From contig NC_013131.1 in NCBI RefSeq assembly GCF_000024025.1, forward strand, positions 3,224,001 through 3,288,000: a stretch of 64,000 nucleotides of DNA. Direction: 5' to 3'. The position numbers and the translations under genes were made by a program. Positions 11,253 through 60,127 of this stretch are shown here, one piece after another; positions within the stretch are counted from its first letter, which is position 1, and each line of letters starts with the position of its first letter. The notes under the pieces were generated by a model that did not search any database, was not told the origin of the DNA, and saw only the letters and a program-made list of their open reading frames with translations. The DNA comes from Catenulispora acidiphila DSM 44928 (GTDB lineage: Bacteria > Actinomycetota > Actinomycetes > Streptomycetales > Catenulisporaceae).

Positions 11253-12281
11253 TCACCGGTGCACTGCCTCAACGAGGTAGGCGAGCGGCACGTTCGGGTT
11301 TCCCCTGCGCGTAACGCTGATCTTCTGCACAGCGGTCGGCAGCGGCCCGCCGAAGGGGTTCACCCGATCGGCGGCGGCGTCGACCACCACGTCCTCGTAG
11401 ATGTGCGACCAGCCCTGGCCGTGGGTGAAGATGGCGACCCGGACGGTCGCGGTGCCCATGTCGGCACCGAGGCTGAACCAGACGTTGCCCCAGCCGGCCG
11501 CACCGTAGTTCGCCGGCGGGGGCAGCACCATCGTCACGGCGTTGGTGCCCGGCGTGATTTCTCCAGTGGCGAATGCGGGCATGGTGTCGTCCCTCGGATC
11601 GGTGGAAGCGGGCGTCGGGGTCGAAGGCGGTGGCGTGACTGTTGCCGGGGCTGGCGGTTTCAAGTCCGCGACCAGCTGCGCAGCGGTGCCCTTGTACGCG
11701 TTGTAGTCCAGCTGCTGTCCGCCGTCGGACGCCTTGTTGGTGAACTGGTAGATCAGCGGCGTCATCTCGCCGTAGGGCTTCCAGCCCGCGGCACCGTCGC
11801 CCGGGTAGATGGCGGCCGGTCCGCCGGAGCCGCCCGGGTACGCCGAGGAGACCAGCGACACCCCGCGGTCGGCCACGCCAGACAGGCTTGGCGAGCCAAG
11901 TTGCTGCCAGAACCAGCGCGGCAGATACAGCAGCCGAAGGTTCAGGCCGGCGTCGTGCGCGGCGTCGATGTAGGCAAGGATCTGCTTCAGCGTCGGTGAG
12001 AACTTGCCCGCCGGCTCCGCATCGAGCATGCCCGGCAGCAATACGTCGCCGACGTTCGCCAGCGTGTGCGCGGCCTGAGCGTGCGCGTCCTCGCCGGACA
12101 GGAAGTGGTACCAGGCGAACGGTCGGCGCAGCGCCGCGGCCTGCGCACGCCACGCCTGGTAGTCGGCGTCGGTGTAGTAGGTACCCTCAGTCGTCTTCGC
12201 GAGAACGAACGCGGCGTCCGCCAGGCGCGATAGCACCAGGCCGCTCTGAAAGCTGGAGATGTCCGGCCCGAAGATGGTCAT
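11253..12281 (-). CDS. GH25-family endolysin (muramidase)
   Basis: A 342-residue lysozyme of glycoside hydrolase family 25. It opens with FGPDISSFQSG (catalytic-type Asp7) and continues with KTTEGTYY (Glu32), MLDAEP (Asp87, Glu89) and LIYQF near residue 190, in the usual TIM-barrel order. After a Pro/Thr linker (about 208-230) a C-terminal beta domain of about 105 residues probably binds the cell wall. No signal peptide is present, so release needs a holin. The start overlaps the stop of the membrane-protein gene upstream (ATGA). Confidence 0.9.
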   Translation of the reverse strand: MTIFGPDISSFQSGLVLSRLADAAFVLAKTTEGTYYTDADYQAWRAQAAALRRPFAWYHFLSGEDAHAQAAHTLANVGDVLLPGMLDAEPAGKFSPTLKQILAYIDAAHDAGLNLRLLYLPRWFWQQLGSPSLSGVADRGVSLVSSAYPGGSGGPAAIYPGDGAAGWKPYGEMTPLIYQFTNKASDGGQQLDYNAYKGTAAQLVADLKPPAPATVTPPPSTPTPASTDPRDDTMPAFATGEITPGTNAVTMVLPPPANYGAAGWGNVWFSLGADMGTATVRVAIFTHGQGWSHIYEDVVVDAAADRVNPFGGPLPTAVQKISVTRRGNPNVPLAYLVEAVHR

Positions 12282-13122: not shown

Positions 13123-14313
13123 TCACAGCTTCGTCACATCGAGCGAGTTCGCCATCACCGCGGCGCCGGCCGAGTTCGGGTGCAGGTGGTCGCCCGAGTC
13201 GTAGGCGGTCTTGAGGTTCTCGTTGACGGCCGTCGCCGAGTTGAAGTCCGCGACCCCGTCCGCGCCGGACACGCCGCTGATCACCCACGCGTTGTAGGCG
13301 AGCCGCTGCGTCTCGACCGCGGACGTGCACAGCGAATCGCCCTCGCACGGTGTGATCGTGGACAGCAGGATCCGCAGGCCAGCAGCATGCGCGGACGCCA
13401 CGAGCGAGGCCTGCGCCTGCTCCAGGACCTGTGCAGTCACCCCGCCGCGCAAGTCGTTGATCCCGTCGGCGTCGATGACGCTGCGGACTCCAGGCTGGTC
13501 GAGCACGTCCTGCTGCCAGCGATGTTGCAGGGAAGGTCCCAAGGAGCCCTTATCTTGAGTGACCCAGTTTCCGGCGATGCCCTCGTCAATGACCGACAGT
13601 CCGGCGGCGCTGACCCGGTCGGCGAGGTAGTTCGGCCAGCGGGTGTCCGTGTCGATGCCGGTGCCGGTGCCGTCGGTGATGGAGTCGCCCACCGCGACCA
13701 CCGTGGACGGCGTTGTCGAGGACACGTCGACCCCGTCGAGCATCGTTACGAAACCGAACGTGTTGCTGGTCGGGTAGTACTCGGCGGTGGAGACGTCGCC
13801 GCCGTTGTGGTTGTACTCGGTCTCGGTGGCGACGTCGTGACGGCTCGTCTGCGCCAAGGCCGCCCCGGACGCGACGTAGATGCTGACCAGCAACCTCGTG
13901 TTCGGTGCGACCGTGAAAGTGACCGGGTCGGACGCCACCTGGCCGCCGGCGGGGATCGTGACCGCCTGCGCGCCGCCGAAGGTCACCGTCGTCGGGACCG
14001 GCTCCAGCGTCGTGCCGCCGTTGAGCTGCGTCCCGACGGTGACGTGCCCGATCTGCGCCGCCTGTGGGGAGAACGCATCGGACAGGCGGATCCGCAGCGA
14101 CGTCCCCCCGCCCGACGTCCTGACGACCATCCGCAACGTCTCGTTATCCCACGGGCCTGACACCGGCGCGTAGGCCGGCGCCGAGCCCCACGATGCCGTC
14201 CAGCCGGTGCCGGTGGTGGCAGTGGCAGTAGCCGGTCCGGCCGCCGACGAGACCGGAAGAACGAGGAGGACCGCAGCAGCCGTAGCCGCAAGGGCGGTGC
14301 GAAGCCGAATCAT
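13123..14313 (-). CDS. secreted SGNH/GDSL hydrolase
   Basis: A 396-residue protein with an N-terminal signal peptide (RTALAATAAAVLLVLPVSSA), a jelly-roll-like domain (about 40-195) and an SGNH hydrolase domain. Block I is VVAVGDSITDG with the nucleophile Ser211, followed by ADGINDLRG and a C-terminal DHLHPNSAG (Asp375, His378). This resembles exported actinobacterial sugar-ester/lipid esterases. It could deacetylate envelope glycans during lysis or be a cargo gene active in the lysogen. The start at 14313 is set by the signal peptide. Confidence 0.85.
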   Translation of the reverse strand: MIRLRTALAATAAAVLLVLPVSSAAGPATATATTGTGWTASWGSAPAYAPVSGPWDNETLRMVVRTSGGGTSLRIRLSDAFSPQAAQIGHVTVGTQLNGGTTLEPVPTTVTFGGAQAVTIPAGGQVASDPVTFTVAPNTRLLVSIYVASGAALAQTSRHDVATETEYNHNGGDVSTAEYYPTSNTFGFVTMLDGVDVSSTTPSTVVAVGDSITDGTGTGIDTDTRWPNYLADRVSAAGLSVIDEGIAGNWVTQDKGSLGPSLQHRWQQDVLDQPGVRSVIDADGINDLRGGVTAQVLEQAQASLVASAHAAGLRILLSTITPCEGDSLCTSAVETQRLAYNAWVISGVSGADGVADFNSATAVNENLKTAYDSGDHLHPNSAGAAVMANSLDVTKL

Positions 14314-14416
14314 GAATGTACCCAAATGATGTCGAGAAGGGATGTGGCCTCTGCGGTCCCGCAGAGCCGGATTACCTCCACCACCCACACCGCCTGTAGC
14401 AGAATGCTGATAGGGG

Positions 14417-14749
14417 GTGAGGCTCGTGCAGATCGATGCTGCTCTCAACTTTGTTGCGCTGGTTGCGCCGCTCGTCCTGTCCTACTGCGTTGCGGGCGCT
14501 ACCCTGCGCGGGCTGCGCGCCTGGAGGCGACACGCGTGGCGCGCACGGCTGGAACAGCAGCCATTCCACCCGCGGATGCTTCCGACCTTGGGACAGCACA
14601 CGGCCACCGGGCTCAGCGGACTGACCCCGGACGCCTGGTACGCCAACCTCGCAGACGATGCCATCAAGGGCCGGCGCAGGAGAGGGCCAAGCTGGCTGGA
14701 CTACCTGGAGGAGTTCCATCCAGAAAAGGGGGCATGGCGCGGCCGGTGA
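14417..14749 (+). CDS. oppositely oriented membrane-anchored moron gene
   Basis: 110 residues on the plus strand, inside an otherwise leftward late operon. The GTG start at 14417 follows a purine-rich stretch. One N-terminal membrane segment (ALNFVALVAPLVLSYCVAGA) is followed by an arginine-rich cytoplasmic domain (RGLRAWRRHAWRARLEQ) and a WLDYLEEFHPEKG tail. Orientation and isolation fit a moron expressed in the lysogen. No known family. Confidence 0.55.
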   Translation: MRLVQIDAALNFVALVAPLVLSYCVAGATLRGLRAWRRHAWRARLEQQPFHPRMLPTLGQHTATGLSGLTPDAWYANLADDAIKGRRRRGPSWLDYLEEFHPEKGAWRGR

Positions 14750-30751: not shown

Positions 30752-32152
30752 TTACGGGCGGGCCGCGAGGGACACGAACGGCGACAAAGCGCCCGCGCCG
30801 TTATGAGGCGTAATGGGAGACTGCAACCAAGGTTGGCCGTCCAGGCGGCTAATGATCCGGAAGACCGTTTTGTCCGACGCGAACTTGAAGTGCGGGCTAG
30901 ACGTGGACTGCATCATCTGGCGGTCGCCGATGAGGTAGTAGGACAGGTCGACGAAGTTGATGTCGCCGAGGCTGCCGAGGGCCGGCGTCTTCTCGGTGAA
31001 GATCACGGGACGGCCGAGGATGCTGACCGGCGGCACGGCCGAGCCAGGCTGCTGCAGGTTGCCGAGCCACACGGCCGAACCGCCGGTGCCCACGGACAGC
31101 GCCATCGTCGCCAGCTGCGGGAAGGTGTCGATTGATGCGATCCACACCGCGTTCTGCAGCGCGGTCGGAAGCATTCGGGCGTACATCTTGACGATGTTTT
31201 CCCAGACGATCGTCCCTGAAGGCTGGCCGGCCTCGGCCGCGACCGCCACGGACGCCGGGCAGTTGACGAAGCCGCGGGGCTCGCCGGCGCCGGTGCCGTT
31301 CATGAAGCCGATGTCCTCGTACCAGGCCAGCGCCCGAGGGAAGACGTCGTCGAAGAAGCTGGTGAACGCTGGCGCGTCAGCCAGGAGCTCGTTGGGGATC
31401 TCGGCGTAGCCGGTCAACTTCTTGGCGTCCAGGGTGACGCGACCGAAACTGGCCTGCGACTCGACGAGGGCCGCGGCCTCTTCGGTCCAGTAGCAGATCA
31501 CGCCGCCGAACACGCTGGACACGTTGCTGGTGGAGTCGATCATCGGGATCGGGACGCGCAGCGTCTCCATCGGGATGACCTGAGCCCGCGGCCGGACGAC
31601 GGCCTGCTCCAGGGCGACCTGCAGCAGGTTCGAGCGCAGCGTCTCCGGGATGAGGAAGCCGCCGTCGGCCGGGACCTCACTGCCGAAGCTGTTCATGATC
31701 TCGGTGACCTTGGACCGCTTAGCGGACAGGTCGGCGGAGCGGTTGACGCGCATCTCGTCGAAGTGGGTGGCGCGGAAGAACTCGGCGGAGTCTTGGAACA
31801 TTCCGTCCAGGGCGCGGCCAATGGCGCGCTGGCCGTTGAGCGCCTTCTCCGCACTGCTGCGCCGGGCGCCGTTCTCGAGGTGGACGCGCGGCATCGCGGC
31901 CGGCCCGGGGGTCATGTCAACCGGCGGGATGTCGCCCTTCTCGCCGTTGTCCTTCATGAACTGCGCGAAGCCGAGCTGAACTTGCTCGGCGATCTGGGCC
32001 TTGAGGTCCGGGTCCGTCTTGGCGTTCGCCGACTGGTAGTTGCCGACGAACTCCTTGAACTTCCCCTCCTTGAGGACGTTCGTCATGCGTTCGCCGTCGT
32101 TCATCCACTCCTCGAGCTCGGCCGAGGACGTCGGGATGGCGATTGTGGTCAC
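30752..32152 (-). CDS. HK97-fold major capsid protein
   Basis: 466 residues from a GTG at 32152 that overlaps the protease stop (GTGA). An N-terminal scaffolding (delta) domain of about 130 residues (ELEEWMNDGERMTNVLKEG) is followed by the HK97 core: GGFLIPETLRSNLLQVALEQ, AVVRPRAQVIPM, YAEIPNELLADAP and GTGAGEPRGFVN. The protease upstream probably removes the delta domain. The C-terminal end carries ILGRPVIFTEKTPALG, typical of the A domain. Confidence 0.95.
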   Translation of the reverse strand: MTTIAIPTSSAELEEWMNDGERMTNVLKEGKFKEFVGNYQSANAKTDPDLKAQIAEQVQLGFAQFMKDNGEKGDIPPVDMTPGPAAMPRVHLENGARRSSAEKALNGQRAIGRALDGMFQDSAEFFRATHFDEMRVNRSADLSAKRSKVTEIMNSFGSEVPADGGFLIPETLRSNLLQVALEQAVVRPRAQVIPMETLRVPIPMIDSTSNVSSVFGGVICYWTEEAAALVESQASFGRVTLDAKKLTGYAEIPNELLADAPAFTSFFDDVFPRALAWYEDIGFMNGTGAGEPRGFVNCPASVAVAAEAGQPSGTIVWENIVKMYARMLPTALQNAVWIASIDTFPQLATMALSVGTGGSAVWLGNLQQPGSAVPPVSILGRPVIFTEKTPALGSLGDINFVDLSYYLIGDRQMMQSTSSPHFKFASDKTVFRIISRLDGQPWLQSPITPHNGAGALSPFVSLAARP

Positions 32153-33846
32153 TGCATTGCCTCCTTCAAGGCCGCGGTCATGCTCGGGTCCCACGCGAAG
32201 TTGAGGTCGCCGTGGGTGTGGTTGCTGGGGGAGTCGCCGTGGTCGCCGGAGTCGGACTTGTCGGCGTCGTCAAGGTGGGCCTGCAGGTGCTTCTCGACTC
32301 CGGGCTTGTCGGAGTCGGGGATCTTGGATCCGGGCAGGCGTGCGAGGCCGTTGCGGCAGGCTGCGAGATTCGCGGGGCCGCCCTCGGTCTTATGGTGCGG
32401 AAAGCGGTAGTTGTCCTTTTTGTCGTCGGCGTCGTCGTCGCCTTCCTCGGACTTCTCCGCGGCGGCTTCGTCGGACATCCAGGCGTGGCAGTACCGCAGG
32501 ACCTTGTCGTCGTTCGGCATCGCCGCGACCGCGGCCGGCCCGTCCCACGGCGTGTCGACCGTGTCTGTGTGGTGAACAGGCAAGCTCTTGTTCAGCAACG
32601 GCATGGATTCGATGCCGAGGATCCGGTCGCCGCGGAGCGAGTTGGTCGTCATGCCGCCGTCGCCGTCGGACTCTTCGTCGCCGTGGTCGTGGCGGTGGTC
32701 GGCGTCGCCGCTGTGGGTGTGCTCGTGTTCGTGACTGTCGTCGTCGCCCTGCGCCCCGAACGCCGGGTGCGCGTGGGTGTGGGTGCCGTCGTAGGGCTCG
32801 TGCATCGCGGCGTTGCTGATGTTGTCGCTGCCGGATTCGGAGCCCTGGTCGCCGATCAGCGCCAGGCCCTGGTTCAGCCAGTTGCGGAAAGGCTCGGCGG
32901 GGATCGAGTCCATGGGGCCTCCCGCGGGAATGGAGAAGCCCCGGTCCGCATTGACCGGGGCTTCGTCGTGGAGCTGTGTGGTTGTGGGTGGCGGGTCAGC
33001 GTCTGGCTGCCGTGCGGCGTCGAGTCCGTCCACCGGGGCGTTCTGCACCTCGGGGTCCGAATCGTTCAGAAGCTTCAGCTGGTCGTCGGCATCGGCACGA
33101 GCCTGCGCGAGCGTTTGCTGCGCGTCGGATTCCAACTTCTCGGCAGCGTCGACCCGAGCAAAGACCGCAGCCTTCAGGCGGTCCGGGGTGTTGCGGAAGA
33201 CCGACAGGTCGAAGTGCGCGGCCAGCTTCGTGGCCTCGTCGTCCGGCGCCGCCTTCGACGGCTTTGCGGGAGGATCGGCCATGCGGTCGGCGAGGCCAGC
33301 GTCCACTGCCTCCTGGCCGATGTACCAGGTCTCGGCGAGCATCGCGGCGCGCCAGTCGTCCTTCGGCTTGCCGGTGCGGTCGGCGTAGATGCTGGCGATG
33401 TTGTCGGAGACCCGGTCAAGCAGTTCAGCCTGTTCGCGCATGTCGGCGGCGTTGCCGATGACCAGACCCCAACCGTCATGAATCATCAGGCTCGCGTTGC
33501 GTCCCATGACGATCTGCTCGCCGGCCATGGCGATGACCGAGGCGATGGAGGCGGCGAGAGCATCGACGTAGGTGGTGACGCCGCCACGGCCGGACAGGTA
33601 AGCGTGGATCGCTATCCCATCCCAGACTTCGCCGCCAGGACTGTTGAGGTGAAGGTCGATCGGGCCGTCGACCTGCTTCATCTCGTCGATGAAGTCCTGG
33701 GCCGTGACGCCGAAGAACCCCACCTCGTCGTAGATCATGACCTGGGTCGGGCCGTCAGCCTGAGCCTTGATCCGGAACCAGTCGTTGCGGCCGGCCCGGA
33801 GGTTTGCGATCGTCCTGGTCGTCTTCAGCCGGGACAGGCCCATCAC
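32149..33846 (-). CDS. ClpP-type prohead protease with long C-terminal extension
   Basis: 565 residues. The N-terminal 190 residues are a ClpP/crotonase-fold protease: LHLNSPGGEVWDGIAIHAYL, then ALAAS with nucleophile Ser100, and MIHDGWG with His123. A coiled-coil linker and a His/Asp-rich stretch (THTHAHPAFG, HEHEHTH, HRHDHGDEE; about 365-410) follow. The last 130 residues (DTPWDGPAAVAAMPNDDKVL, YRFPHHKTEGGPANLAACRN, IPDSDKPGVEKHLQAHL) form a domain often attached to phage head proteases. It should mature the capsid. It starts by ATGA overlap with portal. Confidence 0.9.
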   Translation of the reverse strand: MMGLSRLKTTRTIANLRAGRNDWFRIKAQADGPTQVMIYDEVGFFGVTAQDFIDEMKQVDGPIDLHLNSPGGEVWDGIAIHAYLSGRGGVTTYVDALAASIASVIAMAGEQIVMGRNASLMIHDGWGLVIGNAADMREQAELLDRVSDNIASIYADRTGKPKDDWRAAMLAETWYIGQEAVDAGLADRMADPPAKPSKAAPDDEATKLAAHFDLSVFRNTPDRLKAAVFARVDAAEKLESDAQQTLAQARADADDQLKLLNDSDPEVQNAPVDGLDAARQPDADPPPTTTQLHDEAPVNADRGFSIPAGGPMDSIPAEPFRNWLNQGLALIGDQGSESGSDNISNAAMHEPYDGTHTHAHPAFGAQGDDDSHEHEHTHSGDADHRHDHGDEESDGDGGMTTNSLRGDRILGIESMPLLNKSLPVHHTDTVDTPWDGPAAVAAMPNDDKVLRYCHAWMSDEAAAEKSEEGDDDADDKKDNYRFPHHKTEGGPANLAACRNGLARLPGSKIPDSDKPGVEKHLQAHLDDADKSDSGDHGDSPSNHTHGDLNFAWDPSMTAALKEAMQ

Positions 33847-36800
33847 GTCCTCGCCTTCTCGTGGTGGTGTCCGTTAATGTGCGCCGGTTCCGGCTCGAGA
33901 AGGTTGACGAGCTTCTTCAACATTGCAGTCAGGTCGTCACCGGGGTTATCGGAGTCAGGCCCGACGTCGTAGTCGACGAAAAGGGTTCCGCGGCAACGTT
34001 CGCGCCCCTCGCAAAGCGTGTAGCCACCCATGGGGTACGCGGCGAACGCCTCGGCCACGGCGTCCGGGTCATCGGTGTCGCCGAAGACGGTCCCGTCGAT
34101 CTCTTCGCAGTTGTCGCAGGTTGCCGAGTCCAAGACTTCTACGGCCCGGAGCTGCCCACGCGGGGCGCCGTGCTGCGTGAATGTGGCGTGCCGGGCCCGG
34201 TTCTGTGCCGCCGACATCGCTCCGGCCAGGTGCCCGCGGGGGCCGGCTTCGGACAGGCCTTGCAGGAACTGCCCAACCTGGTCCGCAACCTGCTGCCCGC
34301 CAACTCCGGGAACGGCAAGCCGCATCGCTTCTCGCCCGGCCGATACCGCAAGCTCGGAAGCCATAAGGGCGACAGCTACTGCGGCGATCGTTTCGAGCTC
34401 GGAGGAGTCCGGCGTCTTCGGCGGCACGCTGGCGCCTTGCTCGTCGGCTTCGCGGCTGGCTTCCCGAGCGGCAACCACGGCGAACGCGACCATCGCGGCA
34501 AGCAGCAACGCCTTCGCGGCGACCGTGTCGACGGCCAGCGTTCCGAGCGCGGCTAGTTCGGCAGCGTCCACGTGTTCGCGGATCTGCTGCTGCAACTGCT
34601 GCTGCTGGGCGGGCAGGATCTGGCTCTGGTAGTCGGCGACGACATTGTCGGTGGCCGACTTCCACTGTGCATCGACGCGGGACAGGTCCGGCTGGTTCGG
34701 GCCCTGCGCTGGCGGCGTCGGCCCCGAATCGCCTGTGGCTGCGGTAATCGCGGTGAGGGTGCGGGCGTGGATGGAACTGCGCACCTGGTTCTCGACGGGA
34801 TTGTCGTCCTCGGTAGGCTCGCCGCTGCTGTCGTCGGCCTGCTCAAGTTCGCCGGCGCCGGTAGTGGGGGTTGCGGCCGGGACCTGAATGATGTGGCGCA
34901 TCCGCGGCAGGCCGACCACTTCGGCAGCGTCGTCCGGGTTGACGTTTGCGCTGATGAGCGCGGCGTAGGCCGTGGTCTTCGCGGTGAGCTCGGCGTTGTC
35001 GGCTTCGCGGTCGTCCGGCAGCGGGTTGACGTAGTCCCATTCGACGTTCTCGCCGGTGCTGCCGAACATCGGCAGGAACTGGTTGTTGAGAGTGTCGCGG
35101 AGCCGGTCAAGCCGGGGGATGATCTTCCAGCGTCCGAAGACTTCTTCGGCGGTTTGGGCGTTGGAGTTGCCGTGTATCGCGATGCGCCCGTTGCGCCGGG
35201 TCACGTAGATGTGGTTCGGCACCTCAAGGCTGTAGACCTTGCCGTCGTAACGTTCGGTCGAAACGTTGTTGGATCCCGTCACCCAGGACGCCGGCCGGTC
35301 GGTGATGTGGATGTAGTACATCGGCGCGCGAGCGCTGCGTCCGTCATGGTGTGACGCCATGTTGGCGCGGCAGCCGAGACGGAAGACGAACTCCAGCACG
35401 TCATCGGCAAGGCCCGGGGAGCTAGTCGCGTAGTAGCAGTTCGAGCGGCCCGGCCGTGGATCGCGACTGCCGTCGCCAGCCATCATCGCGTCGAACAGGA
35501 TGCGCCGCTGCCGGAGCGACAGGTTGAAGCACCACCGCGGGATGCGCTTGTCCTGGCAGTTGGTGCCTACGTGCTCCCGCAGCCAGGTGATCAGACCCTT
35601 GCCGGTGATGTTCCACCGGGCGATCTGACCGCCCTCGTCGAAGTACTCATAGGCAGAGAACGGAAGCTGCGCGAGACAGTCACGGATCCGCTGCGGGTAC
35701 TTCTTCTGCGCCAGCGTCATTACGTAGCGGTTGCCAGCACGCTCCTCGGACAGGATGCCGCCCTCGGAGATAACCCAGCCCAGGAACTCCAGCCACGCAT
35801 CCATCGGCAGGCGTTCAGATCCGCCTCGACCGTAGTGCCCGTTGTCGTATTCGACGGCGGGCAGGTCAAACCACTGCTGGTCCGCGCAGTCCTCGGCGTC
35901 CGGGGCAGTCTGAACTAGGAACCGGGACGGGAGTTGGTCCGCGCGGCATGTACGCCAAACGTCCGGCAACCGCGGTGTCGCGTACAGCATCGTGTGGTTG
36001 GGGGTGACCTTCACGTCGATGACGTCGTTGACGATCCGAACCATGTCGCCGTGGTAGTCGTAGGCGAAGCGGTGGATCGGCGCGTGGTATTCAATGCGGC
36101 GCGTCGCGGGGTTAACGGTGGCGATGAGGTCGGCGTCTTCGACCTTCTCGAACGGCTTCCAGCCGCCGTTGGTGAGGACCTCGGTCTGGTCGTCGTGGCA
36201 GCGGTTGACATCGTCAGCGTTGCCGAGCATCGACTTGTGGATGCCCCAGGCCTCGCGCAGGACATCCCTGCTGACGTTCCGCAGGTTGGAGAAGTCCATG
36301 TCCTTGATGGACATCTGGGTCGGAACCCAGGTCGCGCCACCCTCGAGGATCGCAACGCGGTGGGACCGGGACACGCCCTGGTGAGATTCGCGCCACCGGG
36401 TCGAAAACTGGTCGAACTCGTCGTCCGACATGTTTCCCGGCACAGTGACGACGCCGCCGGGGACAGCGCCGTTGATGAAGAAGTTCCGGTTCCACTCGCT
36501 GCCGTACTTCATGGCGTCGATGTCGACCAGCACCGACTGCACCGGCCCGAGCCCGCGGTATGGGTCCAGGGGGTTCGGGTATTTGGTGAGGATGACCTCT
36601 TCGGGCTGCAGCGGAACCCGCTCGCCCGACGGTCCGGTGTAGACGTACCCGGCGATGTACTTCTCCGCCGACGGCACCGGCTCCATGCGGTCCGGGCGGA
36701 CCAGCCACAGCCCGGTCGGGAAGGTGGCTCGGGAGTCGCGGACGACAACCCACCACTGTTCGCCGGTCAGCTCCATGTGCTGCCAGCCGGCTTCGCGGAA

Positions 36801-37151
36801 GTTGACGCCGGTGGTGAACGGGTTCGGGTTGTTCCAGACGTTCAGCGCCTGGTGCTGCAGCACTTCGGTGCGCTGGTCGGATCCGCGGTCGCCGGTGGTG
36901 TACCGCTGTCTGCCGTCGGCTTTCGGCTTGCGGTACAGCCGCCACTGTGGGGTGGCGCTGGCGGAGGACAGCAGCGACACGATTTGGAAGATCGTGCCCG
37001 CGGTCCCCATCGCCCGCATGTAGACCTCGTTGTCCGAGCGTCCGGACAGTGCGGGGATGATGTAGCGGCCTGGTGCGGCGTAGGGGACCGGTGAGGCGTT
37101 GGCGTTCTTGTTGAGTAGGCTGCCGACGACGTTGAACATCGACCGGACCAC
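33843..37151 (-). CDS. portal protein fused to MuF-like minor head domain, with intein
   Basis: The 1102-residue precursor starts at GTG 37151 after AGGAGG. Residues 1-317 and 663 to about 760 are the portal (YRGLGPVQSVLVDIDAMKYG, HKSMLGNADDVNR, then AEEVFGRWKIIPRLDRLRDT). Residues 318-662 are an intein. After a helical region the last 110 residues hold ATFTQHGAPRGQLRAVEVLD and ATCDNCEEIDGTVF, a MuF-type head-morphogenesis domain, so portal and minor head protein are one chain of about 757 residues after splicing. It is followed by ATGA-coupled protease and preceded by a small membrane protein and terminase. Confidence 0.92.
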   Translation of the reverse strand: MVRSMFNVVGSLLNKNANASPVPYAAPGRYIIPALSGRSDNEVYMRAMGTAGTIFQIVSLLSSASATPQWRLYRKPKADGRQRYTTGDRGSDQRTEVLQHQALNVWNNPNPFTTGVNFREAGWQHMELTGEQWWVVVRDSRATFPTGLWLVRPDRMEPVPSAEKYIAGYVYTGPSGERVPLQPEEVILTKYPNPLDPYRGLGPVQSVLVDIDAMKYGSEWNRNFFINGAVPGGVVTVPGNMSDDEFDQFSTRWRESHQGVSRSHRVAILEGGATWVPTQMSIKDMDFSNLRNVSRDVLREAWGIHKSMLGNADDVNRCHDDQTEVLTNGGWKPFEKVEDADLIATVNPATRRIEYHAPIHRFAYDYHGDMVRIVNDVIDVKVTPNHTMLYATPRLPDVWRTCRADQLPSRFLVQTAPDAEDCADQQWFDLPAVEYDNGHYGRGGSERLPMDAWLEFLGWVISEGGILSEERAGNRYVMTLAQKKYPQRIRDCLAQLPFSAYEYFDEGGQIARWNITGKGLITWLREHVGTNCQDKRIPRWCFNLSLRQRRILFDAMMAGDGSRDPRPGRSNCYYATSSPGLADDVLEFVFRLGCRANMASHHDGRSARAPMYYIHITDRPASWVTGSNNVSTERYDGKVYSLEVPNHIYVTRRNGRIAIHGNSNAQTAEEVFGRWKIIPRLDRLRDTLNNQFLPMFGSTGENVEWDYVNPLPDDREADNAELTAKTTAYAALISANVNPDDAAEVVGLPRMRHIIQVPAATPTTGAGELEQADDSSGEPTEDDNPVENQVRSSIHARTLTAITAATGDSGPTPPAQGPNQPDLSRVDAQWKSATDNVVADYQSQILPAQQQQLQQQIREHVDAAELAALGTLAVDTVAAKALLLAAMVAFAVVAAREASREADEQGASVPPKTPDSSELETIAAVAVALMASELAVSAGREAMRLAVPGVGGQQVADQVGQFLQGLSEAGPRGHLAGAMSAAQNRARHATFTQHGAPRGQLRAVEVLDSATCDNCEEIDGTVFGDTDDPDAVAEAFAAYPMGGYTLCEGRERCRGTLFVDYDVGPDSDNPGDDLTAMLKKLVNLLEPEPAHINGHHHEKART
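35166..36200 (-). mobile_element. LAGLIDADG-type intein inserted in the portal protein
   Basis: 345 codons in frame, starting with Cys (CHDDQTEVLTNGGWKPFEKV) and ending RIAIHGN before a Ser (+1). Block B is KVTPNHTML (intein residues 65-72). The endonuclease motifs are WLEFLGWVISEGG (136-148) and LFDAMMAGDGSRD (235-247), and block F is KVYSLEVPNHIYVT (321-334). The residue before the terminal Asn is Gly instead of the common His, with His one place earlier. The extein junction is DDVNR/SNAQTAEE, inside the conserved clip/stem part of the portal. Confidence 0.9.
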
Positions 37152-37201: not shown

Positions 37202-37474
37202 TCAGTCCATGCACTCGTTAAGGATTGCGACCGAAATACCGGTGGCTGCCAGCCCGGCAATCGTCTTGAAGTCCCACGCCGCGGCGTCGAGGAAGCCGAG
37301 GGCGGTGGCGGTCATGACGAGCTTGCGGACGGTGGCTTCCGGGCCGACGATGTGCGCTGATGCGCCCCGAACCCGAATCGCGGCCTTGCGGCGCCACGCG
37401 GCGAAGCCCCGCTTGGCCGGCGTCCAGCGGTTCACTGGCGGCCGGGTATGGGCTCCGACGGTTGCTGTGGTCAC
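37202..37474 (-). CDS. small membrane protein between terminase and portal
   Basis: 90 residues: a basic N-terminus (NRWTPAKRGFAAWRRKAAIR) and hydrophobic C-terminal half (LVMTATALGFLDAAAWDFKT, IAGLAATGISVAILN) with one or two membrane segments. It overlaps the terminase stop by 4 bases. Similar small genes between TerL and portal occur in actinophages; function unknown. Confidence 0.55.
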   Translation of the reverse strand: MTTATVGAHTRPPVNRWTPAKRGFAAWRRKAAIRVRGASAHIVGPEATVRKLVMTATALGFLDAAAWDFKTIAGLAATGISVAILNECMD

Positions 37475-38925
37475 TTCACCACCCTGATTCCGGGCTTGGG
37501 TACCGACGGCGTGTAGAACGCCAACAGAAGCGCGTCGGCGTTGTCGGGGGAGCGCCCGATCCGCTTCTTCGTCTCTTCCTTCTTCTCCACAACGATCCGG
37601 CCCGAGGCGTCAAGGTCGTACTTGGGGGCGGTCAGCTGCGACACGAGACGGTCTCGGTCTGTGGTGTCGAGTTGCGACAGGTCCCAGCCGCCGTCTTCGG
37701 AAAGTTTCCGGCCGACTTCCCACCAGATCTGCGACCGCAGCCGGGCATACTTTTCCGGCTGGGTGGATGCCTCACTAACGTTGACGCCCACGACCTCGGC
37801 AGTGTGCAGACCCTGCTTGCGTCGCGCCTGGAGAGACCCGACGATGCCCCAGCCGATGCCGATCGAGTCGACTTTCACCTTGGTGGCGCCGGTTTCCCGG
37901 ATGGCCCGGACGATGTGGTCGACGACCTTTTCGGAGTCCTTCTCGCGGTTGCGCCATTCGCGTCCGGCGGCGATGCCGCGGCGTTCCCGGATGCAGGTCT
38001 CGTCGCCGCCGGCGCCGAGGTCTACTCCAAGCTCGACCGGCACTAGACGGTCGGGGGCGTAGGGATGGACGGGTTCGCGGGTGCAGGCCATCAACTTCGA
38101 TAGCCGGACCACGCCGTCGGAGGCGTCAGAGGGGAACTCGGCGTCGACTTTCGACAGGTAGATGGGGGATTCGGGCCCAAACTCCTCGGCCATGTCCAGC
38201 ACGTAGGCCTGAGATACCAGCATGTCGGCAAGGTCGTCGGGGACTTCTTCGCCGGTGAAGTTCGGCGTGTCCCTGGCCGCAATCTTGATCATATTCCAGC
38301 GGTCGGACTTGCAGACCTGCGCGAAGTGCGATCCGGGATCGTCAGGGTTGCCGATGGCAAGGATGCGGCAGTGCACGCCGGTGGCGATTGCCAGTGCCGC
38401 GGTCCAGAACTGCTTGGAGATCCCGCAGGCCTCGTCAAGGATAACGAGGACGTACTTGGCGTGGATGCCTTGGAACGCGTGCGGGTTGTAGTCTGACGGC
38501 TTGCGTCCGAACGCGACCAGGAACTTGTCGTACTTCCAGTCGGTCTCGTTAATGCGTCCCGGAAGCGGGGTGCCACGGGCCTCAGCCTTCGCGAACGCCT
38601 TGTTGATCTCGGCCCACAGGATGGCCTTGACCTGGTCACCGGTCGGCGCCGTAGTGACTACGAACGCCTCGCCAGGGGGGTGGGTGTCCAGCCACCACGC
38701 GGTCAGCCGGGACGCTACAAACGACTTGCCTGTCCCGTGGCAGCTCTGAACTGCGGTGAGTCGCTGGTCTCGTACAGAAGTGGCGATGTCGACCTGGCGG
38801 GACCACAGATACTCGCCGAGCTTGTCATCGACCCAGCGTGCCGGGTCGGCAAGGTAGGCTTCTGCAGTTTCCGCGTCCTCGGCGGCGTCTTCGATCCGGT
38901 CGGCGGCGAGCAGCAGCGCGTCCAT
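37471..38925 (-). CDS. terminase large subunit
   Basis: 484 residues. The ATPase domain has Walker A SCHGTGKS (61-68) and Walker B VLVILDEACG (159-168) with the catalytic Glu, then AIGNPDDPGSHF as the coupling motif. The RNase-H-like nuclease domain follows, with acidic residues in ELGVDLGAGGDET, VKVDSIGIGWG and DNADALLLAFY. It packages DNA into the prohead through the portal. It follows the terminase small subunit-like gene by 15 bases. Confidence 0.95.
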   Translation of the reverse strand: MDALLLAADRIEDAAEDAETAEAYLADPARWVDDKLGEYLWSRQVDIATSVRDQRLTAVQSCHGTGKSFVASRLTAWWLDTHPPGEAFVVTTAPTGDQVKAILWAEINKAFAKAEARGTPLPGRINETDWKYDKFLVAFGRKPSDYNPHAFQGIHAKYVLVILDEACGISKQFWTAALAIATGVHCRILAIGNPDDPGSHFAQVCKSDRWNMIKIAARDTPNFTGEEVPDDLADMLVSQAYVLDMAEEFGPESPIYLSKVDAEFPSDASDGVVRLSKLMACTREPVHPYAPDRLVPVELGVDLGAGGDETCIRERRGIAAGREWRNREKDSEKVVDHIVRAIRETGATKVKVDSIGIGWGIVGSLQARRKQGLHTAEVVGVNVSEASTQPEKYARLRSQIWWEVGRKLSEDGGWDLSQLDTTDRDRLVSQLTAPKYDLDASGRIVVEKKEETKKRIGRSPDNADALLLAFYTPSVPKPGIRVVK

Positions 38926-45315: not shown

Positions 45316-45711
45316 TCAGTACCGCCAGGTCCGCCCTTTGATTTCGTTGGCGATCGCGACCAGCGTCTCGACCTGAGCTAGACGGTCGGTGCTCGGTGCG
45401 ACGCCAGCAGGGATGGTCAGCAGCGCCGTCGTCGACATACGGCCGGCCATGGCGGCGATTCGCGGCGACTGGGACGGCACCACCACCTCGTTGTAGGCAA
45501 ACGTCCACCCGTCGGTGCCGATCAAGTCCAGGGCGTTGCGGGCGGAATCGACGTCGCTGTTTCGGAGCCAGTCGGCAGCGAGGCCGAATAGTTCACCTGC
45601 TTTAGCAATGTCCTGCACCTGCGCGGGCGCGTTCTGCACAGCGCGCATGCGGCGCCGGACAACGGCCGCTCCAGCGCCGGCCACGATCAGCACGGCAGCC
45701 CAATCGGTCAT
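45316..45711 (-). CDS. membrane-anchored hypothetical protein after the translocase
   Basis: 131 residues from ATG 45711, overlapping the translocase stop by 4 bases. One N-terminal membrane segment (WAAVLIVAGAGAAVV) precedes a soluble domain with LFGLAADWLRNSDVDSARNA. Probably works with the translocase, given the coupled translation. Confidence 0.5.
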   Translation of the reverse strand: MTDWAAVLIVAGAGAAVVRRRMRAVQNAPAQVQDIAKAGELFGLAADWLRNSDVDSARNALDLIGTDGWTFAYNEVVVPSQSPRIAAMAGRMSTTALLTIPAGVAPSTDRLAQVETLVAIANEIKGRTWRY

Positions 45712-47753
45712 CGGCCGGCCCCTACGAGGCGGGCGTGCTGCGGCAGAACCCACACGCCGCGGTCGCTCTTGACCAGCTTGTTCTGCTCGACCGCGCGGGA
45801 GCATGTCTGGGAGACGGCGGCGAGCCTCTTGTCAACGTCCTCGCCGATGCCCTTGCAGATCTGGGTAGTGCTGGCCTCTTCGCCGAGTTCGGACAGGAAC
45901 AGCTCGATCTTGTCCCACATGGTGCCCGTCGTTGCGGCAGTGGTTTGCGCGAGGGTCTCGGACCACGGCTTCTCCGGGTTCGACGCCTCGTCTTTCGCCT
46001 CCTCGGCGGTGACGAACGCGCTGCCGTCGGCCATGGCCACCATCAGCAGCTGCCCGGTCTCGGTAGTGACTGTAACGCCGTCGCAGTACCAGGCCTCGTC
46101 ATACGGCGTGGGGGGCGCCTGGTCTTCGTCGTCTTCCCAGTCCCACTGGGTGTCGTCGAGCCCTCCAACGGCGGCACGCATCATGACGGAGTGGTCGGAG
46201 TCGGTGCCGAGGTGGTAGGCGACGCCGGCTGCGGATGATCCGTCAGCCCACAGCAGCGGCAGCGCGCCGGGGTCGCCGATTTGCTTGCCGTTGGCGACAA
46301 TCATGCCGGTGAACTGGTTGCCGGTGCGGTGCACGGTCGCGGTGGTGAGGAGTCCGTCGCGGATGGACATGTCGCCGCCGAGCTTGTCGGCGGTGGGGTA
46401 CTGAGTGAGGACGGTCAGTCCGATCAGGACTTTGCGGCCTTCGGCGACGAGCTGCGCAATGAGCGCTGCAGCATGCGGGAATCGGGCGATGAACGCCGGG
46501 AACTCGTCGATGATGATCCGGATGTGTGGCATCTCAGGGGTGGGGCGCAGCACCTCCCGGTTCAACGAGGCAAGGATCCTCAGCCGCCGATTTTTCTCGG
46601 TGACCGCGGCGGCGAGCGCAACCATGATCTCTTCATCGGAGCGGGCGAGGACGTCAACACGGTCGCGCCACCCGGAGTAGGACGCACCCTGGTGCGGGTC
46701 GAGCAGCCAGGTGGCGGTGCAGGCCTCGTTACGCTTGTTGTAGGTGTGCCGGGCCATGGCCAGCCGGAGCCGCGCGGTGCGGGACTTGCCGGAGCCGGTG
46801 GAGCCGACGATGAGTTCGTGAACGGCGCCCCAGCCGGGAAGGATCAGCGGGTGGTGGGTCCATTTGCCTGTGGGGGTCATGCCGGCGGGGTGCCGGTAGG
46901 TGCCGGGGTCTCCGGGTCCGCGCCACGGCACCGGGTCGGTGAGGGGGTTGCGGTTGAACATCATCAGCCGCGCCTTGTTCTCGCTGATGGGCTCGACGGC
47001 GAGGCGCGACGGGTGGATGTCGAGCCCGGTTGAGATTTTCCCGAGCTGGGGCGTGATGTCGGCGACGGTGTGGCGGATCGGGCCGCCGTCGGCGTTGAGG
47101 GTGATGATGCCGGTGGTGCCGTTGCCTTGGCCGTTGGCGTCCAGGAGCGGTTCGAGTTTGGTGAGGCTTGAGTTCTGCATGGGCCCGGCGGCACACCCGA
47201 TGCGCTTGGCCCAGATCTTGCCGGGGCTCGGCGCCTCCTCCTCCGGCGCTTCCGCTTCCTGCGCGACCGACTGCTCTCGCTCTTCGGGTGCTGCCGCAGC
47301 GAGTCCGCGCAACCACCAGCACACGGTGGCGACGCCTGTGGCCGCTCCGTAGGTGGCCAGTGCGGTCGGGGTGTACGGCTTGGCGATGGTGGCGTGCAGT
47401 TCGAAGCCGGTGAGGTACATGCCGCAGGCGGTGATGTACGCAACCTGCTTGCCGTTGAGGGCATCGTCGTTGCGGCGTCGCAGCTCGGCATATCCGCCGG
47501 CGGCGCCGACCGCAGTGACCACGCCGCCGGCTTCGATCCATCCGGCGACTTCGGGTGTGGCTGCGTGCAGCATCCCGGCGGAGGCGATACCGACCGCGGA
47601 GACGGACAGCGGCATCAGCCGGAGCTTGTGCCGCCACCAGGTGCGGCCGGCCCATATAGCAGCCTTGCCGCTGGCGGTGTCGCGGATCTGTGCCGGTGGG
47701 CGCGTCGGCGACCGGACCGCCACGTCCTTGGTGGGCGTCTGTGTGGTCTTCAT
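45708..47753 (-). CDS. FtsK/SpoIIIE (TraB-type) DNA translocase
   Basis: 681 residues from ATG 47753. Two or three membrane segments lie in the first 150 residues, then a linker and an ATPase domain with Walker A GSTGSGKS (317-324) and Walker B IRIIIDEFPA (411-420), with LLDPHQGASYSGW in between. The C-terminal 70 residues (FLSELGEEASTTQICKGIGE) are a winged-helix-like DNA-binding domain. This is the layout of actinomycete TraB/FtsK proteins that move double-stranded DNA between hyphae. The downstream genes (DUF2637 and other membrane proteins) match a plasmid-transfer block. Confidence 0.85.
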   Translation of the reverse strand: MKTTQTPTKDVAVRSPTRPPAQIRDTASGKAAIWAGRTWWRHKLRLMPLSVSAVGIASAGMLHAATPEVAGWIEAGGVVTAVGAAGGYAELRRRNDDALNGKQVAYITACGMYLTGFELHATIAKPYTPTALATYGAATGVATVCWWLRGLAAAAPEEREQSVAQEAEAPEEEAPSPGKIWAKRIGCAAGPMQNSSLTKLEPLLDANGQGNGTTGIITLNADGGPIRHTVADITPQLGKISTGLDIHPSRLAVEPISENKARLMMFNRNPLTDPVPWRGPGDPGTYRHPAGMTPTGKWTHHPLILPGWGAVHELIVGSTGSGKSRTARLRLAMARHTYNKRNEACTATWLLDPHQGASYSGWRDRVDVLARSDEEIMVALAAAVTEKNRRLRILASLNREVLRPTPEMPHIRIIIDEFPAFIARFPHAAALIAQLVAEGRKVLIGLTVLTQYPTADKLGGDMSIRDGLLTTATVHRTGNQFTGMIVANGKQIGDPGALPLLWADGSSAAGVAYHLGTDSDHSVMMRAAVGGLDDTQWDWEDDEDQAPPTPYDEAWYCDGVTVTTETGQLLMVAMADGSAFVTAEEAKDEASNPEKPWSETLAQTTAATTGTMWDKIELFLSELGEEASTTQICKGIGEDVDKRLAAVSQTCSRAVEQNKLVKSDRGVWVLPQHARLVGAGR

Positions 47754-49030
47754 CAGTTGATCGCCAGTACGGTCTGGTGGGCGGCGGCGTTGCCGGTCAT
47801 GGCCTGCGCTTCGGAGTGCGGGCCTTGGTGCCGCTGCACGGTGTCGTGCATGTTCTTCACGGCCTCGGCGTGGAGAATCGCGGCCTGCGCCGACGCCTGG
47901 TTGCATTCGGCAGCGATCTGTTCGGCGGCTGCGAGGGACGCAGCGATTTCGGCAACGACAGCCTCGGCGTCGGCGCGCCGCTGTTCGGTTTGGGCCAGCC
48001 CGACGGCAGTGGTGATGCCCACGCCGATGGAGGTCATGGACGCGTTGTCCACGCGCAGGACGCTGAATCGTGCCGCGGTTTCCTCGAGTTGCGCCGCGTG
48101 TTGGCGGGCCTTGTTCGCGGTTGCGACGGCGGTTTCGTGGCGTGCGACCGCGGTACTGCTGCGGACGAGGGCGTTGGCGGCGCGTTCGATGGCGCTGTTG
48201 GCTCGAACCGTGGACTGCTCGACGGCGCTGACGGCGTAGGCGAACGCGTTCTTGGCCCACCGGAACAGGTCGTGGATGGTGAGGATTTCAGCTGCCATGG
48301 CGTGTCCGTTCGGTGCAGTGATGATGGCGGTCGGGTGAGCAGGGAGTTCCGGCTGGTTGACGATGTCGGCGTATTCGGAACTGGCGAACTGGCTCGGCGT
48401 CGTCACCGGCGCCTGGATGTCGTCGGTGAGTTCGGCGTCGATGACCGCGTCATCGGGCCGCGCGCTGGAGTGCGGCGGCACGTTCGGTTGCTGCGCGCCA
48501 CGGCGGCGCAAACTGAAGCCGGTGGTGCCGCCGGATGGGGTTCCCGGGCGAGACCAGCGACGCCCTGCCGTGGACGCAGACCCGTTCTTCGGAGTGCGGG
48601 ACTGGCGCTGCGTCTTGTTCTGGGTGCCGCGTGCGGTTCGCTTCTTCGCGGTCCAGGTGGCGCCGGACACGAAGCCCAACCCGAAAATGGCGGCGCCGGC
48701 GAGGGACGCGGCGGTGGCATCGCCGAACAGGTCGGCCAGCTTCCCGCCGAGCCGCCGCCCGGGGAGGTGTGCGCGCGTCTTCGTCTTCCATCGGCGGTAC
48801 AGGGACCGCTGCCACTGCCCGAACGTGATGTCGCCGGGGCCGAGCGACGGGCTGGATCCGGACGAGGGGGCGCCCTTCCCTGTATTGCGTGCCCCGGCGG
48901 TCTTCGGTCCGGCGCCGGCTGTTGCGCCGCCGCCGGCCGTCGCAGGGGTGGATGCCCGTGCGGCTTTGACGGTGGCGACAACGCCGGAGCCCGCCCACCA
49001 GGCGATGGCGATGAGGATGATCGGAATCAT
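47753..49030 (-). CDS. membrane protein of the transfer block
   Basis: 425 residues. An N-terminal anchor (IPIILIAIAWWAGSGVVATV), a basic Pro/Thr/Gly-rich stretch, a second hydrophobic segment near 105-120 (ASLAGAAIFGLGFVSGA) and a long alanine-rich coiled coil from about 250 (VEQSTVRANSAIERAANALV) to the end. It resembles Spd-type accessory proteins in character only. It overlaps the translocase start by one base, so both are made together. Confidence 0.6.
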   Translation of the reverse strand: MIPIILIAIAWWAGSGVVATVKAARASTPATAGGGATAGAGPKTAGARNTGKGAPSSGSSPSLGPGDITFGQWQRSLYRRWKTKTRAHLPGRRLGGKLADLFGDATAASLAGAAIFGLGFVSGATWTAKKRTARGTQNKTQRQSRTPKNGSASTAGRRWSRPGTPSGGTTGFSLRRRGAQQPNVPPHSSARPDDAVIDAELTDDIQAPVTTPSQFASSEYADIVNQPELPAHPTAIITAPNGHAMAAEILTIHDLFRWAKNAFAYAVSAVEQSTVRANSAIERAANALVRSSTAVARHETAVATANKARQHAAQLEETAARFSVLRVDNASMTSIGVGITTAVGLAQTEQRRADAEAVVAEIAASLAAAEQIAAECNQASAQAAILHAEAVKNMHDTVQRHQGPHSEAQAMTGNAAAHQTVLAIN

Positions 49031-49783: not shown

Positions 49784-50887
49784 TCAGCTGGCCTGCTCTA
49801 CGGTTTCGACGGCCCGGAGCCGGGGCGCAAGCTCGGGAAATCGACGCTCGACGATCTCCCTGATCTGCTTGGCTCGGGAGTCGGTGTTAAGCCCTTCGAC
49901 AGCCGCGACAAGCTCCGGCGCGGTGGGGCGGGGGTTCGCGCGCTTGCCGGTGTTGTCGGCGAGGATTTGGCGGTAGGCGCCGAGAGTGGCGACAACGAGG
50001 GCTTCGACTTTGTCGGTGGCGGAGTTGTCGTTGGCGTCCGCAGCGCTGGCGACAGGCTTGGCGTTGGCGACAGCCGTGTTGTCGTTTTGGCGGTTGTCGG
50101 TCGGCGTCTGGTTGTCGTTGGCGGTTGTCGTTGCCGTTTTGGCGGCCGTCGCGCTGTCGACTGTCGTTGTCGTCGCGGCCGGATTAGCGGTTGGCGTTGT
50201 CGACCGGGTGTTGGCGGCAGCGTTGTCGGCGCCTGCCCGGTTGGCGACTGCCGCCGGCGCCTCATCCGTGGCGACCTTCTCGGCGAGCATTTCGGCTGCC
50301 TTGCGCGCCAGGGTGTCGGCGCCGAGTCCGACAAGAGCCTGCACGGGGATCGCAAGGATCTCGTTGCGGATCGCGGCGCGGGTGCCCTTGCGGTCCACCG
50401 TCCACCGCAGCATCAACAGTCCGGTGCGGACCTTGAAGACGACCTTGCCGTGGCGCCGCTCGTAGGCCTCGCGGGCTTCCTTCAAGACCTTCCCGAAAGC
50501 CAGGACGGCGGCGATCGGCAGCAGCGCGGAGACGAGCTTGCCCTGCGGGTCGTTGATGTGAATCCAGTTAATCCACGACGACAGCGTGGTGAAGCCGTCC
50601 ACGTAAAGCAGCGATCCGAGGCTGGCTCGGCCGTAGATGGCGGCGCGGAAGCTCAGCAGCGACAGGGCCAGTGCGGCGCCGTCGAAGGTGGACGGCACCA
50701 GCCATGCCGCGCGCTCACTCAAGTCCATGTGCTGCTGGGCGAAGGCATGCAGTGCGATGAACGACGCGGCCCAGCCGGCGACGGCCACGGCCACGACGAG
50801 GATCATGGCGAGTGAGGCAAGTCCGTTATCCCTCAGCGCGTCGCGCCACCGCGGCTTGGCATCCGGCGTCTCAGTGTTCTCGGTCAT
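49784..50887 (-). CDS. DUF2637 membrane protein (Spd-like)
   Basis: 367 residues. The N-terminal 150 residues match DUF2637: LASLAMILVVAVAVAGWAAS, FIALHAFAQQHMDLSERAAW, LVPSTFDGAALALSLLSFRA, with four membrane segments. After a basic segment comes a Thr/Asn/Ala-rich low-complexity region (230-300) and a C-terminal charged helix (AKQIREIVERRFPELAPRLR). DUF2637 proteins are carried by Streptomyces-type conjugative plasmids and integrative elements and are linked to plasmid spreading. Confidence 0.8.
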   Translation of the reverse strand: MTENTETPDAKPRWRDALRDNGLASLAMILVVAVAVAGWAASFIALHAFAQQHMDLSERAAWLVPSTFDGAALALSLLSFRAAIYGRASLGSLLYVDGFTTLSSWINWIHINDPQGKLVSALLPIAAVLAFGKVLKEAREAYERRHGKVVFKVRTGLLMLRWTVDRKGTRAAIRNEILAIPVQALVGLGADTLARKAAEMLAEKVATDEAPAAVANRAGADNAAANTRSTTPTANPAATTTTVDSATAAKTATTTANDNQTPTDNRQNDNTAVANAKPVASAADANDNSATDKVEALVVATLGAYRQILADNTGKRANPRPTAPELVAAVEGLNTDSRAKQIREIVERRFPELAPRLRAVETVEQAS

Positions 50888-58927: not shown

Positions 58928-60127
58928 ATGACCACCGATGACCAGGCCTTCGACCTCGTCGCGGCCGAAGATTTACGCCTGTCCTACACGTCAGTCCGGG
59001 ACTGGACAATGCTCCACCCCGAGCTGCGCGGCACGCCATTCCAGCTGTACGCCATCATGCGATCACTGGTGATCGACAAGGCCGGAGATCAGCCGTCGCG
59101 CCGCATCACCCTCGATCAGTTGTGCTGGCTGCTGCCGGGCGTCAACGGCAAGCCGACATCGCTGACCGTCGTGAAGGACGCGCTTCGAGCGCTGGACAGG
59201 CTGGGCTTGGTAACGAACCCCGACAGCGAACGCCTGGTCACGTCCACGGGCGACCGCGGCATCAAGTCTCGGCGCCGCTTCCAGATCAACGACCTGCCGC
59301 CCGACGGATTCCGAGGCTGGCGCAACGCCTGGGACAAGCTGGACAGCTACCGCGAGGAATGGCGCACCGTCGCACCTAAACCGCCGGCCCTCGGCTCCGC
59401 GCCGGTTCGAAACGAACTCGATGACGGCCAGGACCAGCGACCCAAAACGGACGTCGGCGGCATCGAACAGACTCTCGAGGGTCGGAATTCCGACCATCGA
59501 GCCAACCAGGCAGAACAGGACGAAACCCCAGGTCATCTCGATGGTCGGAATTCCGACCGTGCTGGACGGAATTCCGCCCACGGCGGACGGAATTCCGTCC
59601 GACAACTGGCATCTGACCAGCCCCAACGGGCCCCTAAGAAGTTTCTCAAAGAAGGTTCTCTCTCTACGGTCGCCTCAGCGGCGACCGATGCGGACCCCAC
59701 CAGGCGAGAGAGAGAACCCGTCTGCGACGAAGAACCAGACCCCGCCGACCTGATCGTGAAGGCGTGGGCCGACGCCTGGACCAGAACCCGCAGCGGCCCA
59801 TACCCCGTCAGGTCCCCGGACGCCGTTCGTCGCAATGCCCGGCGACTCCTGGCCGACGGCAGCAATGTCGACCTTCTGTGCATGGCCGCAGCCAACATGG
59901 CCGAGCGCGGCTGGATCGACCTCGACAAGCACCTGGAGCGCTGGATCCCACCGAAGACGCCGGGATCGCCCGCAGCCGACACATCCGGCCGTACCGCAGC
60001 CGACTGCCGCTGGTGCGACCCGTTCGGCTGGTACGAGCATGCCAACGGCGACGGCGCCCGCTGTAACCACCCCAACGACCCGCCGGCCGGACACCCGGCC
60101 GCCACCAACACCAGGAGCGCCGCATGA
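58928..60127 (+). CDS. replication initiator (lambda O-like) carrying internal iterons
   Basis: 399 residues. Residues about 20-115 form a winged-helix domain of phage replication proteins (RDWTMLHPELRGTPFQLYAI, RRITLDQLCWLLPGVNGKPT, VVKDALRALDRLGLV). Residues about 180-226 are encoded by a phased palindrome array, giving GRNSD, GRNSD, GRNSA and GRNSV. The C-terminal part has a helical domain (DAVRRNARRLLADG) and a possible zinc site (CRWCDPFGW...CNHP). It should bind its own gene and load the DnaB helicase encoded next, overlapping by ATGA. Confidence 0.75.
   Translation: MTTDDQAFDLVAAEDLRLSYTSVRDWTMLHPELRGTPFQLYAIMRSLVIDKAGDQPSRRITLDQLCWLLPGVNGKPTSLTVVKDALRALDRLGLVTNPDSERLVTSTGDRGIKSRRRFQINDLPPDGFRGWRNAWDKLDSYREEWRTVAPKPPALGSAPVRNELDDGQDQRPKTDVGGIEQTLEGRNSDHRANQAEQDETPGHLDGRNSDRAGRNSAHGGRNSVRQLASDQPQRAPKKFLKEGSLSTVASAATDADPTRREREPVCDEEPDPADLIVKAWADAWTRTRSGPYPVRSPDAVRRNARRLLADGSNVDLLCMAAANMAERGWIDLDKHLERWIPPKTPGSPAADTSGRTAADCRWCDPFGWYEHANGDGARCNHPNDPPAGHPAATNTRSAA
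59480..59600. other. putative origin of replication: four phased palindromes
   Basis: GGTCGGAATTCCGACC occurs at 59480-59495 and 59543-59558 (perfect 16-base palindromes), ACGGAATTCCGC at 59566-59577 and GGACGGAATTCCGTCC at 59585-59600. All share CGGAATTCCG, with centres at 59487.5, 59550.5, 59571.5 and 59592.5, spaced 63, 21 and 21 bases, i.e. multiples of two helical turns. Placement in the initiator gene is like lambda ori inside gene O. Confidence 0.75.

Follow-up and report, generated by a model that had tools for sequence, protein, structure and literature searches.

In an actinobacterial prophage we identified a full-length, apparently intact intein of the class 1 type that interrupts the gene for the portal and carries a LAGLIDADG homing endonuclease. 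We assign a probability of roughly 92% to this reading, in which splicing and homing are inferred. The window, meaning the whole 64,000-nucleotide stretch analysed, encodes the portal on its minus strand as one open reading frame of 1,102 amino acids (33843-37151). The intein occupies 345 codons of that frame (35166..36200, minus strand; residues 318-662), starts with CHDDQTEV, ends with RIAIHGN and contains no stop; its translation, predicted model and fold matches all describe a LAGLIDADG endonuclease set within a Hint splicing domain. On either side lie an N-extein of 317 codons (36201..37151, minus strand), which ends in DDVNR, and a C-extein of 440 codons plus the stop (33843..35165, minus strand), which begins with SNAQT. 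An earlier note on this DNA had described a 345-codon in-frame insertion splitting the portal between these two motifs, and its coordinates proved exact and the frame open; Cys1, the TPNH block, the two LAGLIDADG motifs, the terminal Asn and the Ser at +1 that it had listed are each present in the translation.

As marks of a class 1 intein, the sequence has a nucleophile at position 1, a TxxH block, a C-terminal Asn and a Ser at +1; the penultimate His, common in this class though not part of its definition, is absent. Cys1, the presumed first nucleophile (block A; 36198..36200, minus strand), is invariant in an alignment of 33 inteins (A4). In block B (TPNH, residues 66-69; 35994..36005, minus strand) His69 is also invariant, and Thr66 is kept in 90% or more of the rows. 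The first LAGLIDADG motif, LEFLGWVISEG (residues 137-147; 35760..35792, minus strand), contains the acidic residue E146, invariant in A4, and the second, LFDAMMAGDGS (residues 235-245; 35466..35498, minus strand), contains the acidic D243, found in at least 90% of the rows. The intein closes with His-Gly-Asn (residues 343-345; 35166..35174, minus strand), Gly-Asn being the ending of all eight inteins first aligned. The Ser that follows (35163..35165, minus strand) is residue 318 of the spliced portal and the presumed acceptor. A class 3 assignment was also considered and was ruled out by the Cys nucleophile at position 1. The intein block is single-copy in the host genome (search at E 0.001), and none of nine other genomes of the host genus has the intein.

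The verdict that the insert is an intein rests on profiles and a structure model, because the signals from single-sequence Pfam, NCBIfam and phmmer searches were weak or absent. Specifically, no Hint or intein model in Pfam was matched by the insert, and the Pfam LAGLIDADG_3 model fell below threshold on it (19.2 vs 22.5 bits); at E 0.001 this model matched 28 of the 33 rows of A4, the window's row not being one of them. The NCBIfam models for intein-bearing DnaB, GyrA and Tes matched far under their cutoffs (best E 9e-6), and phmmer of the single insert sequence against PDB sequences gave no match at E 1. PHROG 85, a thymidylate synthase family, matched intein residues 1-76 (E 1e-9), probably by way of an intein inside that family.

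An eight-row profile of the insert and seven relatives, compared with solved inteins, gave PI-PkoII as its best match (7e-15); it also matched VMA inteins (1e-13 and 7e-13) and the AceL NrdHF intein (3e-7). The structure model, computed from the intein block and 32 relatives, has a mean pLDDT of 93.6. Foldseek ranks the TliVMA intein first (E 1e-16), and VIA-align superimposed 310 residues on it, spanning model residues 1-345, with a Z of 26.5 and an rmsd of 4.0; against the AceL NrdHF intein it reached a Z of 19.7 at 1.8 A. The endonuclease part was matched by I-DmoI in Foldseek (about 4e-6) and by I-Tsp061I with a Z of 14.1 over model residues 109-301. As modelled, the insert is a Hint fold plus a LAGLIDADG endonuclease, beyond chance, and the intein identity proposed in the earlier note is upheld by a model that fits solved inteins from end to end. 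The solved TliVMA, PI-PkoII, PI-PfuI and PI-SceI inteins share this Hint and LAGLIDADG architecture (Z 21-26.5), but are only 13-18% identical to the window's intein and interrupt other host proteins.

LAGLIDADG enzymes also occur in introns, and the same endonuclease motifs could belong to a group I or II intron that carries a LAGLIDADG gene and is excised from the RNA. However, the insert is in frame throughout, a Hint fold surrounds the endonuclease in the model, and an Rfam search of the insert at E values up to 1 gave no intron match, its sole hit being a chance one (E 0.75). We consider an intron highly improbable.

The exteins belong to a phage portal protein of the HK97 type. They match PF04860 in Pfam (E 5e-50, 170.9 bits against a cutoff of 39.1) and PHROGs 2662 (E 5e-68) and 12 (E 1e-53), with both the N- and the C-extein matched by PF04860 and the PHROG portal families, and the predicted spliced product is 757 residues long. 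The earlier note had placed the insertion next to a MuF fusion, which does not hold: the MuF-like domain (PF04233) begins about 315 residues past the insert, in the C-terminal region, and stays below the Pfam cutoff here (17.9 vs 29.6 bits). In one portal relative, locus L109, the same domain scores 49.5 bits, above the cutoff.

Next to the portal lie genes for TerL (37471-38925, 484 aa), a protease (32149-33846) and a major head protein (30752-32194), the latter two recognised in the PHROG search; this arrangement is consistent with a head module. TerL matches PHROG 2 in a single stretch and DnaB (60124-61470, 448 aa) matches DnaB_C unbroken, which fits the earlier note's remark that neither contains an intein. 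The phage structural genes are accompanied by an FtsK/SpoIIIE-like protein (PHROG, 6e-8; 45708-48260, minus strand) and a DUF2637 protein (3e-51; 49784-50887, minus strand), of kinds that integrative elements and plasmids of actinobacteria typically carry. Elsewhere in the window, a GDSL lipase-like protein (2e-20; 13123-14448, minus strand) is perhaps a tail-linked gene of the prophage, and a GH25 lysozyme-like protein (5e-10; 11253-12281, minus strand) perhaps a lysis gene.

The earlier note would have been contradicted had all close portal homologues contained the same region without Hint similarity; instead, intein-free homologues exist. Scanning viral contigs with a portal alignment, we confirmed at least 587 relatives among at least 600 stretches and retained the best 80. 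All 80 of these best-scoring relatives (of at least 587) cross the junction in one alignment with no insert, a selection that favours uninterrupted genes and is not a measure of how often the site is filled. The nearest empty alleles, L029 and L030, are 85% identical to the window's portal over a 406-aa query, and the complete L030 portal (752 aa), which is intein-free, aligns to the spliced window portal over its full length at 70.4% across 763 columns. Over the 60 bases around the site, 54 are identical to the window in L029, 54 in L031, 51 in L032 and 46 in L030. The portals of Streptomyces phage Dagobah (41.5-43% identity) and of another genome of the same class (about 47-50%) also read through the junction without an intein. 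The possibility that the insert is an ordinary domain of this portal family has close to no probability left, since the insert is missing from all of these proteins.

The insertion site lies inside a strongly conserved motif. Numbered as in the spliced portal, position 316 is Asn in every one of the 80 best empty alleles, and position 317 is Arg in 73 of them and Lys in the other 7. Inteins habitually occupy sites where imprecise loss would harm the host protein, and a site in a conserved portal motif fits this habit because imprecise loss there would be harmful. From an alignment to the RcGTA portal, the description of the R4C portal in the available part of PMC10276861 and the usual portal topology, the site is probably in the tunnel-loop region, between the second stem helix and the spine helix.

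The residues just downstream bear on whether the intein still works. Residue 318 is Ser in the window, but Ala in 76 of the 80 empty alleles and Ser in the other 4; at residue 319, 71 have Asn, 5 Thr, 2 Val, 1 Asp and 1 Ser. In 71 of the 80, neither position holds a Cys, Ser or Thr. The sequences suggest either that Ser318 arrived with co-imported flanking sequence or that the intein entered a rarer Ser allele. Because Ser318 is needed by the intein here and the position is Ala in 76 of 80 relatives, the residue gives indirect support for a working intein. This argues against a decayed or splicing-dead intein, which would be retained as a block or would only cleave, in a prophage without working heads. 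Prophage genes often decay, and the sub-threshold Pfam scores point the same way. However, the splice-site and endonuclease residues are intact, the frame is open, and the GC content at third positions (0.85) resembles that of the exteins (0.90 and 0.82), and we regard a dead element as quite unlikely.

We searched for related inteins in phage genomes and viral contigs. At E 1e-5 the intein hit 144 of 50,697 phage records, and in 136 the match covered 80% or more of the query. The host genes among the matches listed include nucleotidyltransferase, DNA methylase, RDF/phosphoesterase, ThyX, ribonucleotide reductase and some others; when two portal inteins were used as queries, no portal was among the matches listed (60 of 141 and 30 of 301 records). 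For IMG/VR we used a four-row alignment (A2), the eight-row alignment (A3) being too divergent for contig scanning, and found 47 loci with a related intein. After setting aside eight near-duplicates (L111, L113, L129, L135, L140, L141, L153 and L154), 39 distinct loci remained. Their host genes were not preselected, because the search patterns were built from intein motifs only. The 14 top-scoring loci (L109-L122, 12 of them distinct) are all portal-family matches or near-duplicates of such, and of the 28 distinct precursors scanned against PHROGs, out of 39, 18 have a portal-family hit with a threshold of E 1e-5.

We placed the inteins within these 18 portals by alignment. One, L109 (like its near-duplicate L111), is interrupted at the window's codon, and 13 (L110, L112, L114-L122, L139 and L142) are interrupted one codon later. 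These 14 portal inteins share the type of gene family and the insertion region with the window's, but most differ from it by the shift of one codon, follow an Ala and have Thr or Ser as the +1 residue. The remaining four are placed elsewhere or ambiguously: L123 and L149, with inteins far upstream, L124, with its intein at +3, and L136, which is cut at its C-end. In addition, L125 has the same NRA-T junction as the hotspot inteins without a portal match. The difference of one codon is no alignment slip, since the spliced L109 and L112 portals align without gaps relative to each other there. The 14 hotspot portals span five families (PHROGs 2662, 12, 9232, 10963 and 37955), and blastp at E 0.01 detects similarity to the window's extein in no more than 7 of the 39 distinct exteins.

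L109 forms a clade with the pair L110/L112 (support 100/99); since these differ in position, at least one shift must have occurred within the clade, and the tree over the hotspot rows needs two position changes. A single origin for all hotspot inteins was considered and is unsupported: the hotspot label needs four changes on the tree, TerL and other inteins are placed among the hotspot inteins, and the branch of the window's intein is without firm support. By path length on the trees, portal inteins are the nearest to the window's. Percent identity alone fails to single them out, because the intein in L005, a nucleotide-sugar epimerase-like gene in a cyanobacterial MAG, resembles the window's to much the same degree (36-40% identity) as that of L109 does (about 39.8-41%). 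Among 394 genomes of the class, the host's included, 48 have a hit to the intein profile at E 1e-12; in the flanks of 12 loci from these 48, read by eye, none is at the portal site.

What is new here is that related inteins recur at a single portal site, in two positions separated by one codon; in our searches of the open-licence literature we found no earlier report of a portal hotspot or of such a shift. A general account, to which we give slightly better than even odds, is that VN-R/A-N-A (NRA-T-A elsewhere) is an intein hotspot of tailed phages, and that one intein subfamily entered several divergent portal families there, shifting by one codon to whichever Ser or Thr the portal tolerates, residue 318 (Ser) in the window and L109 and residue 319 (Thr or Ser) in the others.

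Splicing in the window's portal would proceed as follows. Cys1, aided by His69 of block B, would form the N-terminal thioester, which would be attacked by Ser318 of the portal, and Asn345 would cyclise without a penultimate His as the exteins join to give the 757-residue portal. The endonuclease would cut empty portal alleles at their conserved VNR-A-N-A site, and repair would copy the intein in, perhaps bringing with it the flanking codon that supplies Ser. It is reasonable to suppose, with the earlier note, that head assembly would depend on this splicing.

The earlier note had called the penultimate Gly a known but uncommon variant that may slow splicing; the suggested slowing is not supported. 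In this subfamily Gly is usual: a terminal Asn is readable in 33 of the 39 distinct IMG/VR loci, of which 31 have Gly before it, one has Ser and one has His (the +1 residue in these 33 being Thr in 20, Ser in 11 and Cys in 2). An experimentally tested comparison is the RDF intein of cluster A1 mycobacteriophages, which has a penultimate Gly like the window's but a different host gene. According to the available parts of Kelley et al. 2016 (PMC5050341), splicing of the RDF intein was demonstrated experimentally for Bethlehem gp51, where the native Gly gives complete splicing and a change from Gly to His, rather than Gly itself, slows the reaction so that precursor accumulates. This result is suggestive rather than conclusive, because the RDF intein is a distant relative (18-21% identity, Magnito copy aligned). 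We counted against the intein reading that the tested Gly-ending intein is this dissimilar and comes from a different phage than the copy aligned, together with the Pfam intein and LAGLIDADG models that the window sequence does not pass and the missing penultimate His.

Some inteins are known to splice conditionally. The window's intein might accordingly act as a regulated switch, slow or conditional splicing timing the supply of portal and hence head assembly; the available part of PMC7156551 puts forward conditional splicing for a phage terminase. We see no sign of regulation in the present data, and the Gly-ending RDF intein splices readily in the parts of PMC5050341 at hand, and we judge a switch unlikely.

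The earlier note described inteins as best known in terminases, polymerases and helicases; taking the portal as an unusual host gene is only partly right. The intein in the window is a further portal intein, in a host gene already known to accept inteins. The available portion of Kelley et al. 2016 (PMC5050341) tabulates 229 inteins, 6 of which are portal (PORT) inteins of cluster C1 mycobacteriophages, and the subfamily studied here is often found in portals. Like the window's, the C1 inteins interrupt a phage portal protein; unlike it, they are carried by a myovirus group. We did not recognise the C1 portal in the parts of ET08 and BeanWater examined, nor among the four ET08 proteins or parts scanned. 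The best match from a phage isolate is the nucleotidyltransferase (NT) intein of C1 mycobacteriophage BeanWater, 30.4% identical over residues 1-345, which ends in His-Gly-Asn like the window's but lies in a different host gene. Interference between phages by an intron endonuclease is reported in the available part of PMC11620839; by analogy, a similar role is possible for the endonuclease of the window's intein.

With its well-defined boundaries and close empty alleles (L029 and L030), this portal intein lends itself to parallel tests of splicing and homing. The recurrence of related inteins in two positions at a single portal site would throw light on the passage of inteins between distant phages, and the spacing of one codon on the way an insertion point can shift. 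For annotators, very long portal genes may conceal inteins.

Three relatives may contain a second intein. The L112 portal precursor (L112:2571-6905) seems to hold a second intein of a different type near its MuF-like end (residues about 1086-1426), where sub-threshold Intein_splicing (9e-7) and PT-HINT matches surround a DUF559 nuclease match (2e-10). The 1,101-aa epimerase-like frame L005:4578-7883 apparently has two inteins when its translation is read by eye. L127:978-5162, a terminase-like frame with a GIDWG-T intein, has about 430 extra residues (about 201-629) that are absent in relatives and are perhaps a second intein. Separately, the 1,463-aa portal precursor L149:1904-6292, whose intein is at another portal site, also has a match to a NUDIX hydrolase family, over residues 1055-1180.
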